Positions 45,226 to 50,379 of a DNA stretch of 64,000 nucleotides are shown here, piece after piece. The notes below the pieces were generated by a model. The model did no database searches. It saw only the letters and a program-made list of their open reading frames with translations, and was not told where the DNA came from. Within the stretch, counting starts at the first letter, position 1. Each line of letters starts with the position of its first letter. Source of the DNA: Synechococcus sp. PROS-U-1 (lineage in GTDB: Bacteria > Cyanobacteriota > Cyanobacteriia > PCC-6307 > Cyanobiaceae); contig NZ_CP047951.1 of the NCBI RefSeq assembly GCF_014279755.1, forward strand, positions 1,674,001-1,738,000, written 5' to 3'. The position numbers were made by a program, and so were the translations under genes.

Positions 45226-45872
45226 GCATCGGGGTCATCGTTTTCCCCGGCTCGAACTGTGATCGGGATGTTCAATGGGCGACTGAGGGATGCCTCGGCA
45301 TGAGCACGCGCCGTGTCTGGCATGAAGAGACCGATCTGAGCGGCTTTGACGCGATCGTGCTCCCTGGCGGTTTCAGTTACGGCGATTATCTGCGTTGCGG
45401 TGCCATTGCCCGCTTCGCGCCAGCCCTGCAATCCCTGATTGAGTTCGCGAAACAGGGCGGGCGGGTGCTTGGCATCTGCAACGGATTCCAAGTGCTGACA
45501 GAACTGGGCCTTCTCCCTGGCGCATTGACCAGAAACCGGGATCTTCACTTCATCTGTGAGGACGCGCCCCTCAAGGTTGTGAGTCAGCGCACAGCCTGGA
45601 TGCAGGGGTACGACGGCGGAACGCTGACCTTGCCGATCGCCCACGGAGAAGGCCGTTATCAGTGCAGTGATGACACGCTGAAGCAGCTTCAGGACAAGGA
45701 CGCCATTGCCCTGAGATACGGCAACAACCCCAACGGGTCGGTCGCCGATATCGCCGGCATCACCAATCCCAGCGGCACCGTTTTGGGCCTGATGCCCCAC
45801 CCGGAACGGGCTTGTGATCCAGCCACTGGAGGAACCGACGGCCAACGCATGCTGGAAGCCCTGCTGGGCTGA
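45222..45872 (+). CDS. purQ: Phosphoribosylformylglycinamidine synthase subunit PurQ
   Basis: This 216-residue glutaminase subunit supplies ammonia for FGAM synthesis. It has the class I amidotransferase nucleophile in [18 protein letters not shown] (cysteine near residue 86) and the His-Glu pair in [10 protein letters not shown]. It starts [14 protein letters not shown]. The gene overlaps purS and shares one base with the next gene (TGATG). Confidence 0.96.
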
Positions 45873-46837
45873 TGCAGAGCCGCCGAACGCTGCTGATCTC
45901 AGGGGCATCAGCCATTGCATCCACAGTCGTTACGGCCCTGCTCTCCCCAAGGGCCATGGGCGCGCAGGGGAGGTTGGCACCGCTGAAACCTGGAGCGCGC
46001 ATCCGGGCGGTGAACCCCGGCACATGGATGGATCCAGACACCGATCTGCAACCCTTGATCGAGCGCTGTGATGCACAGAAATGGCATCTTGAAATCCCAG
46101 CCACCGTCACCCGTCAATGGCGCTACTTCTCGGGAACAGACCGAGAGCGGATCAGCGACCTGGCAGCGGCCTGGAATGATCCAACAGTCGATGCTGTTCT
46201 GACCCTTGGTGGCGGCTGGGGTGCCGCCCGCGTGCTTGAAGCTGGATTCCGCTTTCCGCGACGTCCCAAATGGAGTCTTGGGTTTTCTGACACCAGCTCC
46301 CTGCTGCTGGCCCAGTGGGCCGCCGGCCTGCCGGGGGGCATTCATGGATCAAGCGGCGGCACGGACGCGCAGTGGCAACGGACGGTTGCTCTGCTCCGGG
46401 GAGAACCGGTAGCCCCCCTTCAGGGAGAGCCGCGACGGCGAGGAATCGCTTGTGGCCCCTTGGTTGTCACCAACCTGACCGTGGCGACACATCTGATCGG
46501 AACGCCCTGGCTTCCCTCGCTGAAGGGCGCCATTTTGGTGCTGGAAGACGTTGGAGAAGCGCCCTACCGGGTGGATCGGATGCTGACCCAGTGGCGCAGC
46601 GCTGGCCTGTTGGAGCACTTGGCTGGGGTGGCTTGCGGTCGGTTCAGCTGGGCACAGGACGACATCCTCCCTGGAGATTTCACCATGGAGGAAATCCTTG
46701 AAGAACGCCTGGGCGACCTGGGTATTCCGCTTGTGCTCAATCTGCCGATGGGTCATGGTCGGCCCAACCAGGCGTTGCCGCTGGGTTCACAAGCACAACT
46801 GGATGGCCAGCGCGGCCTGCTCAGCCTGCTCCCCTGA
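45872..46837 (+). CDS. LD-carboxypeptidase (peptidase family S66), Tat-like signal
   Basis: This 321-residue periplasmic enzyme would cut the LD-peptide bond of peptidoglycan recycling tetrapeptides. The N-terminus has a twin-arginine motif SRRTLLISG and a hydrophobic region. The S66 features are LGFSDTSSLLLAQ with the catalytic serine in the S-D-x-S region, GPLVVTNLTV, and LVLNLPMGHGRPNQALPLG with histidine. It is linked to purQ by the TGATG overlap, though the metabolic link is not clear. Confidence 0.86.
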   Translation: MQSRRTLLISGASAIASTVVTALLSPRAMGAQGRLAPLKPGARIRAVNPGTWMDPDTDLQPLIERCDAQKWHLEIPATVTRQWRYFSGTDRERISDLAAAWNDPTVDAVLTLGGGWGAARVLEAGFRFPRRPKWSLGFSDTSSLLLAQWAAGLPGGIHGSSGGTDAQWQRTVALLRGEPVAPLQGEPRRRGIACGPLVVTNLTVATHLIGTPWLPSLKGAILVLEDVGEAPYRVDRMLTQWRSAGLLEHLAGVACGRFSWAQDDILPGDFTMEEILEERLGDLGIPLVLNLPMGHGRPNQALPLGSQAQLDGQRGLLSLLP

Positions 46838-46911: not shown

Positions 46912-48036
46912 TTGGCCGACCTCACCATCGCGAACACGGTTTCCGATCTGATCCAAGGCGATGTTCGCGAACATCTGCCATTGGAACGGATTCCCCTGCA
47001 AGGCGATGTGCTGGGGCTTGGGACCACGTCAAGTTTGGAGAACGGTGAACTCACCTTTCTTCGCAACGCCTCCGGGAATTCGGACATCTGGCGCTGCATC
47101 GCCCACAACGGAAGCATCATTCGGCTGCAGCCTGGGGACGGCAGCGGACATTTCCCTTATGTGTGCTTCACAGGAGATGCAACGGAGCTGCGTCGACCTG
47201 TTGAGCTGAGCTCGCTCAAGCAGCTGGAGCAGCAGCCAATCCAAGACATCATCAGCTCCGCGATCAAACAGCAACGCAATCGCGGGGCCCTGGAAGATGC
47301 CCCCATTTACGGAATCCGAATGCTGGCCCACTGGGATGAGCTGGTGATCACCGTGGCCTCCAAGCTCTGCATGGGGCAGCAACGACGGAACCGAGGTTTC
47401 TCCAGTGGTTCAGACAACGGCACACAGGCCGAGACGAGCATCTACGACATGCTCCAGCACTATCGTCTCGCGCCGTTACCGCCTGAGCAACCCGGCGATC
47501 CGATCAGCTATCTCGGCAAATCGATGCAATGGGATTGCTGCGGGTTCTTCGACTGTGAACCGGAACAGGGGCGCGTCACGGTTCCCAAAGCAGGCGATCA
47601 TCTGCATCTGCATGGCTGCAGCACCGACCTGGCCTATGGGGGCCATGTTCTGCATGATCATCCCCACACCCGCCTGGGGAGGATCGAACAACTGGTGCTT
47701 TACCCGCTGCAGTCAATTGAATCGCTCTGCAGTGATCTCGCCATCAATCACCTGAACTATGAGAAGGGCCAGATCCAGTTCAGCGTCACCAATGCTGGTG
47801 CCCTTGATGTGAGCGACGTGGGGGTGGCTGTGATCGTCAACGACCGCTTCAGTGATCACCGTTATCTGCAGATTCCCTGGATGAATGCTGGAGCGAGCGA
47901 GAGTTACAGCCTGGCCTGGCAGCTGCCCCCTGGTCAGCACTCCATCTCAGTGATTGCCGATCCCCAAGAACTGGTCATCGAACCCCAGAACCGGCGCCAA
48001 AACAATCGGATGGATCTGAAGGTCAACATCTCCTAA
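46912..48036 (+). CDS. Acetolactate decarboxylase-like protein with C-terminal CARDB-like domain
   Basis: The 374-residue protein starts at TTG. Residues about 10-270 match the acetolactate decarboxylase (BudA) fold: GDVLGLGTTSSLENGELTFL, YGIRMLAHWDELVI with the conserved arginine (136), and the zinc site DHLHLHGCSTDLAYGGHVL. The zinc histidines are residues 232, 234 and 245, with the same spacing (2 and 11) as in known enzymes. Residues about 275-374 look like a CARDB beta-sandwich (FSVTNAGALDVSDVGVAVIV). I saw no signal peptide. No acetolactate synthase gene is nearby. The fusion is unusual. Confidence 0.75.
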   Translation: MADLTIANTVSDLIQGDVREHLPLERIPLQGDVLGLGTTSSLENGELTFLRNASGNSDIWRCIAHNGSIIRLQPGDGSGHFPYVCFTGDATELRRPVELSSLKQLEQQPIQDIISSAIKQQRNRGALEDAPIYGIRMLAHWDELVITVASKLCMGQQRRNRGFSSGSDNGTQAETSIYDMLQHYRLAPLPPEQPGDPISYLGKSMQWDCCGFFDCEPEQGRVTVPKAGDHLHLHGCSTDLAYGGHVLHDHPHTRLGRIEQLVLYPLQSIESLCSDLAINHLNYEKGQIQFSVTNAGALDVSDVGVAVIVNDRFSDHRYLQIPWMNAGASESYSLAWQLPPGQHSISVIADPQELVIEPQNRRQNNRMDLKVNIS

Positions 48037-48117: not shown

Positions 48118-49191
48118 TCAGGCAGCGACGGCAGCCTTGGGATCAAGAGCACCCTTGGCATACAGGCCGGCGTAGTGGGTGATGCTCTGCTGCTGGATCT
48201 TGCTGGCATTGCCGGCAGCCCAGAACTGCTGATAGCGGTCAAGGCAGACCTGCTTCATGTACTTCCGAGCCGGCTTGTTGAAGTGGCGGGGATCGAAGTT
48301 GGCGGGGTCGGCCATGGCTGCCTCACGCACAGCAGCGGTAAAGGCCAGACGGTTGTCGGTGTCGATGTTCACCTTGCGCACACCGTTGCGGATGCCCTCC
48401 TGGATCTCTTCGACGGGAACGCCGTAGGTCTCGGGGATGGAACCACCGTGCTTGTTGATCATCTCCAGCCATTCCTGGGGAACAGAGGAGGAGCCATGCA
48501 TCACCAAGTGGGTGTTGGGGATGGCTTTGTGGATCTCAGCGATGCGGCTGATGGCCAGCACTTCGCCTGTGGGCTTGCGGGTGAACTTGTAGGCGCCGTG
48601 GCTGGTACCGATGGCGATAGCAAGAGCATCACACTTGGTTTTGGCGACGAAGTCAGCAGCCTCTGCAGGATCGGTGAGGAGCATGTCTTTGGACAGCTCA
48701 CCCTCGAAACCGTGGCCGTCTTCAGCTTCACCCTTACCGGTTTCCAGGGAGCCCAGACAACCCAGCTCACCTTCAACACTCACACCCACGGAGTGAGCGA
48801 AGTCAACAACCTGCTTGGTGACGTTGACGTTGTAGTCGTAGCTGGCGGGAGTCTTGGCGTCGGCTTCCAGGGATCCGTCCATCATCACGGAGGTGAAGCC
48901 GTTGATGGCAGCGGAGTAACAGGTATCAGGAGCGTTGCCGTGGTCCTGGTGCATCACCACGGGGATGTGGGGATAGGTCTCGGTCGCGGCCAGGATCAGG
49001 TGACGCAGGAAGATTTCGCCGGCGTAGCTGCGGGCACCGCGAGACGCCTGCAGGATCACGGGGCTGTCGGTCTCGTCAGCCGCTTCCATGATGGCCTGGA
49101 CCTGCTCGAGGTTGTTCACGTTGAACGCAGGGATGCCATAGCCGTTTTCGGCGGCATGGTCGAGCAAAAGCCGAAGCGGAACGAGCGCCAT
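48118..49191 (-). CDS. fbaA: Fructose-bisphosphate aldolase, class II
   Basis: This 357-residue metal-dependent enzyme condenses dihydroxyacetone phosphate with glyceraldehyde 3-phosphate or erythrose 4-phosphate in the Calvin cycle and gluconeogenesis. It has the zinc-binding VVMHQDHGN, the conserved [15 protein letters not shown] and [19 protein letters not shown], and [16 protein letters not shown]. The product is cytoplasmic. It lies just downstream of the class I aldolase on the same strand, with an inverted repeat in the 120-bp gap. Confidence 0.96.
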
Positions 49192-49266
49192 AGGAAAAAT
49201 CTGATACGGAACCTTGACGGAAAGACTCCGCCGGGCGATGACTTTACCTATTTGTGTTCAAATTGT

Positions 49267-49302
49267 CACCAAGCCCGTCCAAACAAACGACAGGGCTTGG
49301 TG
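49267..49302 (-). terminator. Inverted repeat between the two aldolase genes
   Basis: CACCAAGCCC and GGGCTTGGTG form a perfect 10-bp stem with a 16-nt loop. It lies 10 bp after the stop of the class I aldolase gene. There is only a weak T-run after it on the minus strand (ACAATTTG), so it may be a leaky terminator that also lets transcription reach fbaA. Confidence 0.5.
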
Positions 49303-49311
49303 AAATTCGAT

Positions 49312-50379
49312 TCAGTAGGTGTAACCGGCGACAAACAACTGTTCATCCGACGAAGGCTGGGAGCCAGCAACGTATTTGCCGCGTGAGGCTTCAGAGTTAG
49401 CTTGGGCCCTTGCAAACAGTGCTTTCTGGCCAGCTTCAGTGTTGGTCCCACCCCAGCCTTTGAGGCAAGAGTGCTGCAGAGCTCGGCCATAAGAGAAACC
49501 AAGGTTCCACTTGGCCTTGCGCTCAATGCTGTTCATATGGTTCAAGTACACCGAAGCAGCTTCTTCACTCAAGCCTCCGGAGAGGAACACAATGCCGGGA
49601 ACACTGGCAGGGACACTGCGCTCGAGGGTTCGCACCGTCATCGCCGCGACTTTTGCAGGGTCTGCCTTGTCTGGGCAGTCCGCGCCCTGAACCGTCATCG
49701 AAGGCTTCAGCAGAGTTCCTTCAAGCAAGACACCGTTGGCGTAGCAAGCGTGATACACCTCCTGTATGACGTGTTCCTGAACTCGAGCGGTGGTTTCGAT
49801 GCTGTGGTTGCCATCCATCAGGATTTCGGGCTCCACGATGGGAACAAGGCCGGATTCCTGAACCGAGCGGGCATAGCGAGCCAAGCCCCAAGCATTTTCG
49901 CGAACAGAGAGGGCTGAAGGGCAGCCATCTGCAGTGATTTGCAGCACAGCACGCCACTTGGCGAAGCGAGCGCCCTGGGCGTAATAGTCGGCAGCACGCT
50001 CAACCAACCCATCAAGACCAGTGCAGAGCGTCTCGACGGCGTTGGCGCCACCAAGGGGCCTTAGGCCCATATCGACTTTGATGCCGGGAATGATTCCAAG
50101 CTTGCCCAGCTTGTTCACCATGGACTCGCCGTCAGCATGGTTTTGGAAGAGGGTCTCTTCGTAAAGAATGGCTCCGCTGATGAAATCTCCAAGCCCCGCA
50201 GTGGTGAAGAGCATCCCCCGATAGGCCTGGCGATTGGCTTCGGTGTTCTCCACTCCGATGGAGCCAAGGCGCTTGCCGATGGTCTTGGTGGACTCATCAA
50301 CAGCAAGAATTCCTTTGCCAGGTGAGGCGAGGGATTGTGCAGTTGAAATCAGTTCGGAGGTGTAATCCGCCAGAGCCAT
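49312..50379 (-). CDS. Fructose-bisphosphate aldolase, class I
   Basis: This 355-residue Schiff-base aldolase resembles plastid class I enzymes: KGILAVDESTKTIGKRLGSI, LFQNHADGESMVNKL, IVEPEILMDGNHSI and the lysine motif GTLLKPSMTVQG, plus VFLSGGLSEEAASVYLNHM. It does the same reaction as the class II enzyme downstream but without a metal. The two may be used under different conditions. A perfect palindrome is just upstream of the start codon. Confidence 0.95.
   Translation of the reverse strand: MALADYTSELISTAQSLASPGKGILAVDESTKTIGKRLGSIGVENTEANRQAYRGMLFTTAGLGDFISGAILYEETLFQNHADGESMVNKLGKLGIIPGIKVDMGLRPLGGANAVETLCTGLDGLVERAADYYAQGARFAKWRAVLQITADGCPSALSVRENAWGLARYARSVQESGLVPIVEPEILMDGNHSIETTARVQEHVIQEVYHACYANGVLLEGTLLKPSMTVQGADCPDKADPAKVAAMTVRTLERSVPASVPGIVFLSGGLSEEAASVYLNHMNSIERKAKWNLGFSYGRALQHSCLKGWGGTNTEAGQKALFARAQANSEASRGKYVAGSQPSSDEQLFVAGYTY

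Follow-up and report, generated by a model that had tools for sequence, protein, structure and literature searches.

A CARDB-fused protein with an acetolactate decarboxylase-like fold and altered active-site residues in Cyanobiaceae

The gene, its neighbours and its two domains

The window, a 64,000-nucleotide stretch of the Synechococcus sp. PROS-U-1 genome, carries purQ, an S66 LD-carboxypeptidase gene (45872..46837, + strand; Pfam PF02016 and PF17676), the gene studied here (46912..48036, + strand) and then, on the opposite strand, genes for class II and class I fructose-bisphosphate aldolases. The class II gene (fba; 48118..49191, − strand; TIGR01521 652.9 bits, cut-off 496.35) is the convergent downstream neighbour, and the two aldolase genes lie next to each other (48118-50379, − strand). 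The open reading frame, whose bounds are exact, has a TTG start, encodes 374 amino acids and is given here with its stop codon; copies in marine Synechococcus relatives (L002-L016) can be aligned with it from residue 1 onwards, one of them (L005) being broken further downstream. The 2.58 Mb genome has a single copy, at contig position 1720912. Among eight marine Synechococcus copies, out of ten that were loaded, dN/dS was 0.11-0.22 in 28 of 28 pairs, and pN was well below pS in the acetolactate decarboxylase (ALDC)-like part and in the CARDB part alike. We rejected a chance frame on the grounds of the single-copy locus, the spread over genomes and these ratios; the open reading frame is real, and both of its domains are under purifying selection.

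A sequence-only reading had described the product as an ALDC-like enzyme fused to a CARDB-like domain, and both profile and structure comparisons bore this out. Pfam searches of the protein returned CARDB (PF07705; E 2.4e-8, 34.5 bits against a cut-off of 22.7), with the ALDC family AAL_decarboxy (PF03306) below threshold (E 5e-5, 23.2 bits against 25); the NCBIfam model TIGR01252 gave 15.3 bits against a cut-off of 180.65. At E ≤ 0.01, CARDB was found in all 57 family members searched and AAL_decarboxy in 45 of them. The distant copies in genomes G738 and G507 scored 25.0 and 32.6 bits for CARDB and 16.2 and 24.1 bits for AAL_decarboxy, respectively. Neither the protein nor a 57-row profile reached ALDC in sequence searches of the PDB, where only chance matches came up, and a profile comparison with one true ALDC covered only residues 4-50 (probability 41%, E 3e-4).

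Structure prediction gave a clearer relationship. The AlphaFold model of the whole chain (57 sequences) had a mean pLDDT of 87.2, with one weak segment at residues 152-175 (47365..47436, + strand; pLDDT <50). Its top eight Foldseek matches in the PDB were all ALDCs, and structural comparison with ALDCs gave Z scores of 18.7-20.0 (rmsd 3.1-3.7 over 209-218 aligned residues, 15-20% identity); human PTD012 (1xcr) gave Z 13.6. When residues 1-270 (46912..47721, + strand) were folded alone from 60 sequences, the pLDDT was 82.9 and the match to ALDCs persisted (Z 17.5-18.8, rmsd 3.1-3.5, 200-204 aligned), and 14 of 14 Foldseek matches at E ≤ 0.001 were ALDC or ALDC-like entries. The next matches after the ALDCs were PTD012 (Z 13.0) and AF0104 (Z 6.7), the half folds of the AF0104/PPC type reaching only Z 5.7-6.7. 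The predicted fold of the catalytic domain thus matches ALDC beyond chance. The C-terminal β-sandwich, which had been called foreign to BudA, is a CARDB domain with an Ig-like fold (residues 269-374; 47716..48033, + strand), aligning with the CARDB domain 3idu at Z 14.8 (rmsd 1.8, 100 aligned). Without this domain the pLDDT of residues 1-20 fell (blocks of 88 and 81 to 77 and 62), as did that of residues 211-230, which suggests that CARDB packs against these two segments in the model; we put this as a suggestion only because the two AlphaFold alignments differ by three rows.

Residues at the predicted active site

We aligned 60 copies (57 from Cyanobiaceae and those of G435, G738 and G507) with 19 cyanobacterial ALDCs and the ALDC of B. 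subtilis, with and without the CARDB part, and the key columns were identical both ways. A global hhalign comparison with the 19 true ALDCs (E 2e-6, probability 79%) displaced the HxH motif by two residues; its register was set by the gap-free spacing and by MAFFT alignments, and hhalign likewise placed T147 opposite the arginine discussed below. Marlow et al. (2013) reportedly described Thr58, Glu65, Arg145, His194, His196, His207 and Glu253 in the Brevibacillus ALDC, and the spacings in the B. subtilis enzyme (80, 49, 2 and 11) agree with this numbering.

The presumed metal ligands are retained. H232 (47605..47607), H234 (47611..47613) and H245 (47644..47646; all features + strand), the counterparts of His194, His196 and His207, were each present in 60 of 60 copies and have exactly the BudA spacing of 2 and 11 that had been read from the sequence. 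From this exact motif and the fold we infer that the three histidines bind zinc. Also invariant were T38, the counterpart of Thr58 (Thr in 19 and Ala in one of the true ALDCs), and E46 (47047..47049), the counterpart of Glu65. The ALDC domain of the 60 copies has 48 invariant columns in all, of which 32 hold a polar residue, glycine or histidine.

The rest of the site is different. At the Arg145 position, which we take to be the catalytic arginine of the Brevibacillus enzyme, the family has T147 (47350..47352) in all 60 copies; the 20 true ALDCs all have Arg there. Also invariant in the 60 copies are K151 (47362..47364), C153 and R159, the latter two within the low-confidence segment, which is a possible lid, and the additional histidines H248 and H250 (47653..47661). 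The H248 column, three residues after the third metal histidine, holds Asp in 16, Glu in three and Lys in one of the 20 true ALDCs. Structural alignment to 4bt2/4bt3 pairs the isolated domain up to residue 227 and the whole chain up to residue 240; by sequence, the ALDC tail bearing the second glutamate (Glu253) is replaced by CARDB and has no counterpart in the alignment. Of the two catalytic glutamates, the first is therefore kept as E46 in 60 of 60 copies and the second has no aligned equivalent, although a glutamate from elsewhere in space, for example E357 of the CARDB domain, could possibly take its place. The 'conserved arginine' that had been reported as present was most likely R136, which aligns with a column of Arg (15), Lys (4) and Gln (1) in the 20 true ALDCs. 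With threonine at the catalytic position and the tail unmatched, the earlier case for ALDC activity is not supported. Judged by sequence, on both the arginine position and the family scores, the protein is not a member of the ALDC family.

Distribution, insertion site and the acetoin pathway

The gene was sought in 400 genomes taken as Cyanobiaceae, among which Synechococcus WH7803 is a named carrier, and was matched in 69 of them (about one in six) and in 13 of 59 genera. An intact full-length frame was found in 57 of the 69 (the window and 56 loci). The remaining 12 had only broken, fragmentary or partial copies, of which at least two (G221 and G322) end at a contig edge and in another (G203) the N-terminus is shifted; one further genome, G127, carries two copies, of which one is intact and one broken. 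Because five named loci (L031-L035) repeat numbered genomes, the counts leave them out. A sample of the phylum gave matches in 13 of 386 genomes, three of them outside Cyanobiaceae (G435, G507 and G516). Within the families of these genomes, 2 of 15 genomes matched in that of G507 and 2 of 2 in that of G435, adding G738, which we take to be S. elongatus from a recognised carbonic anhydrase. The copies in G435, G738 and G507 are intact, and that in G516 is interrupted by a stop and lacks any match to residues 1-41. The profile search for the domain pair, which covered cyanobacterial genomes, thus found it in many small ocean and freshwater cyanobacteria, and it is widespread in Cyanobiaceae. 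No match was found in the plasmid and phage collections, and none of 51 pattern matches in viral contigs was confirmed, so that carriage on phages or plasmids was rejected. In literature searches on ALDC or CARDB with cyanobacteria, Synechococcus, Prochlorococcus or acetoin, we found no published report of an ALDC-CARDB fusion.

We classed 66 family loci by their flanks (75 loci less five duplicates and four without a match): 19 had fba and/or S66, 32 were next to gyrA and/or lycopene cyclase (crtL), and 15 had neither within the flanks examined. In 16 of 20 genomes that do not have the gene, the S66-fba junction was closed, with a gap of 53-108 bp (L167-L185), one of these gaps relying on a second S66 piece; three of the other four had S66 but no fba within 1.5 kb, and one had only a distant S66 relative. 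These intact empty junctions indicate clean gain and loss of the gene at a fixed site. The gene tree tracks location, with five site changes against a mean of 27 after shuffling, and a single site holds copies from different genera, as would be expected if relatives exchange the gene there. An fba neighbour was also present in G738 (503 bp away, convergent) and absent beside the gene in G435, of the same genus. We considered a link to fba: the two genes adjoin each other in marine Synechococcus and in G738, and no such neighbour is seen in G435 or at any of the 32 loci of the gyrA/crtL site.

In G507 an MFS transporter gene, a gene for a thiamine pyrophosphate (TPP) enzyme and the ALDC-CARDB gene share a strand and follow one another at spacings of about 110 bp (L090:3545-8019). 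The model nearest to the TPP enzyme is that for indolepyruvate decarboxylase, TIGR03393, at 414 bits (cut-off 946). In the sister genome G516 (L091) the last gene of the row has an internal stop. This 2-oxo-acid decarboxylase neighbour was found in one genus only, and the best-scoring match to it in the window genome is 22% identical. Among the Cyanobiaceae genomes, 14 of 44 that carry the ALDC-CARDB gene and 3 of 23 that lack it encode a relative of this enzyme (≥40% identity over most of the protein), a weak difference that is confounded by kinship.

True ALDC (PF03306) was found in 48 of the 400 family genomes (47 above cut-off, some broken) and, at E ≤ 0.01, in 24 of the 386 phylum-sample genomes (21 above cut-off); these counts are separate from those of the ALDC-CARDB gene because the PF03306 genome search misses the window gene. 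The acetoin pathway therefore does occur in Cyanobiaceae. An als/bud pathway is reported for Black Sea Synechococcus genomes in PMC6776005, and PMC8955281 repeats the report. The notion that acetoin production is foreign to these cyanobacteria thus fails for the lineage and, as regards true ALDC and AlsS, stands for the window genome, which has no PF03306 match at E ≤ 0.001. It also has no match to cyanobacterial AlsS at E ≤ 1e-60, in line with the earlier statement that no synthase gene is near; more distant TPP-enzyme matches lie at contig positions 98528-99982 and 767297-768685. In G064, AlsS (TIGR02418 645 bits, cut-off 551) adjoins a true ALDC. There (L166:7631-12539) AlsS, an ALDC with a ribbon-helix-helix stretch and an opposite-strand 2-oxo-acid-decarboxylase-like TPP enzyme are adjacent. 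Both true cyanobacterial ALDCs that were checked (L166:9339-10193 of G064 and L115:1366-2190) carry such an N-terminal RHH_1-like stretch (20.9 and 20.1 bits, cut-off 20.5), so each is a possible DNA-binding enzyme.

These data bear on the possibility that the protein is a genuine ALDC, its catalytic arginine and tail glutamate swapped for other residues, that stands in for BudA. The shared fold, zinc triad and E46 favour this reading, and so does the rarity with which the two kinds share a genome: 69 and 48 of the 400 genomes have one or the other, and only six of the 111 with either have both (G062, G064, G082, G181, G218 and G253). Both were intact in three of the six, the true ALDC being fragmentary in G062 and G181 and the ALDC-CARDB gene broken in G218. 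Such rarity would be expected of two genes doing the same job. Over all 400 genomes, six shared genomes were observed against 8.3 expected under independence; some mutual exclusion is possible if many of these genomes come from lineages that have neither kind. Furthermore, TPP enzymes, matched at least distantly, were present in 70 of 70 genomes tested; among them is presumably a biosynthetic synthase from which acetolactate could come. Against this reading stand the threonine at the Arg145 position in 60 of 60 copies and the tail missing from the alignment. Catabolic AlsS (≥66% identity) was also found in only 4 of 45 Cyanobiaceae genomes carrying the gene, broken copies included, three of the four also having a true ALDC and the fourth a broken ALDC-CARDB copy. 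Membership of an AlsS operon was rejected on this count. As an argument against a genuine ALDC, however, the rarity of AlsS is weak, because of 25 genomes with a true ALDC, among them G218 with its broken ALDC-CARDB copy, 18 had no AlsS either. AlsS was present in the other seven (once as fragments containing stops) and in two of six genomes with neither kind, and is thus poor at separating the two kinds. The matches to AlsS at E ≤ 1e-60 in G507, G516, G738, G108 and G223 were only 30-35% identical and were taken as other TPP enzymes. Finally, S. elongatus strains engineered to make butanediol receive alsD, in one paper from Aeromonas hydrophila (PMC5355792, PMC12645572), which would count against a genuine ALDC if the added gene is needed and if G738, with its intact copy, is S. 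elongatus. On balance we regard a genuine ALDC as unlikely.

Proposed reaction and comparison with known systems

Because the catalytic site is changed and an Ig-like domain has been added, the substrate is probably something other than acetolactate, a suspicion already raised by the sequence-only reading and supported here by the domain, predicted fold and active-site comparisons. Our best explanation, in which we have moderate confidence, is a zinc decarboxylase of another 2-hydroxy-3-oxo acid that uses the ALDC fold with a rebuilt active site. The three histidines would hold the metal, which, as in ALDC, would coordinate a 2-hydroxy-3-oxo (β-keto) acid through its 2-hydroxy and 3-oxo groups, and E46 would give a proton to the enediolate that remains after loss of CO2. 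Binding of the substrate carboxylate, the job of Arg145 in ALDC, may have passed to K151 and R159 in a flexible lid, and H248 and H250 may take over the role of the lost tail glutamate. CARDB would sit as a cap where ALDC has its tail, and may mediate pairing or docking. With no signal peptide discernible by eye, the protein is presumably cytoplasmic. We count in favour of this explanation the model confidence (pLDDT 87), the invariant site residues, the purifying selection and the window genome, in which no PF03306 or AlsS match was found, together with G507, outside Cyanobiaceae, where an intact copy follows MFS and 2-oxo-acid-decarboxylase-like TPP genes. Counted against it are the mere 6 of 111 shared genomes and the confinement of the 2-oxo-acid decarboxylase neighbour to one genus. 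The best precedent for other β-keto acids on the same fold is C11orf54/PTD012; in the structure comparisons its entry 1xcr ranks directly behind the ALDCs.

A narrower version of this explanation, which we consider a long shot, is that the decarboxylase acts on a phosphorylated or other anionic 2-hydroxy-3-oxo acid of carbon metabolism, for example a damaged or misrouted Calvin-cycle intermediate, with K151/R159 replacing Arg145 and H248/H250 the tail glutamate. The gene does adjoin class II fba in marine Synechococcus and in the S. elongatus-like G738, though this neighbour is lacking in G435, a relative of G738, and at the gyrA site.

A zinc enzyme of another reaction type on the same fold, such as a hydrolase, an isomerase or a lyase that releases no CO2, seems to us about as improbable as a genuine ALDC. 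It would fit a protein whose catalytic set is reduced to the metal site and the Glu65 and Thr58 counterparts and in which five invariant histidines cluster. PTD012 has hydrolytic activity on p-nitrophenyl acetate and belongs to a family earlier annotated as ester hydrolases, but it has since been assigned as a decarboxylase (PMC12435205). Also against another reaction type, E46 and the metal ligands, as expected for enediolate chemistry, are all kept. Least probable of all is that the protein catalyses nothing and serves as a metal-binding structural or regulatory component: CARDB domains usually have a binding function and the spread is patchy, with 12 of 69 genomes having only broken, fragmentary or contig-cut copies, but the 48 invariant columns of the ALDC domain and the dN/dS of 0.11-0.22 argue against it.

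If the zinc decarboxylase reading is right, the fold would have a third branch, with consistent but different active-site residues, in 69 of 400 Cyanobiaceae genomes. To our knowledge, ALDC was the sole known decarboxylase on its fold until the C11orf54 assignment in 2025. A change of substrate on the ALDC fold is now directly testable, the gene also being present in what we take to be the model S. elongatus (G738). We caution against annotating ALDC-CARDB genes as acetolactate decarboxylase.

Among known systems, the C-terminal domain (residues 269-374) resembles CARDB (PF07705; 3idu, 2kl6 and 2l0d) at Z 12.4-14.8 and rmsd 1.5-2.2. CARDB domains usually occur in exported, cell-surface proteins, whereas the window protein has no signal peptide by eye and its CARDB domain is borne by an ALDC-fold enzyme. 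C11orf54/PTD012 (DUF1907, PF08925; 1xcr) shares the zinc fold at Z 13.0-13.6 (rmsd 4.3, 218-224 aligned, 10% identity), and PF08925 was not among the two Pfam families found at E ≤ 10, a search in which HMMER filters drop most matches above about 0.1. A commentary now assigns C11orf54/PTD012 as a 3-dehydro-L-gulonate decarboxylase and mentions no CARDB domain in it (PMC12435205). BudA/AlsD/ALDC (PF03306, TIGR01252; PDB 4bt2, 5xne and 6inc) is the closer relative in fold (Z 17.5-20.0), His spacing (2 + 11) and the Thr58/Glu65 counterparts; the window protein differs in having Thr at Arg145, no aligned counterpart of the tail with the second glutamate and His in place of Asp/Glu after the third His. 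It adds the invariant H250, K151, C153 and R159 and the CARDB domain, and its 15-20% identity to ALDC goes with scores below the PF03306 and TIGR01252 cut-offs. True cyanobacterial ALDC occurs in the same family of genomes and shares the core fold and His triad, but it is a separate gene family that has Arg145 in 19 of 19 sequences, keeps the C-terminal tail, has no CARDB domain, bears an N-terminal ribbon-helix-helix in the two checked and lies beside AlsS in some genomes.
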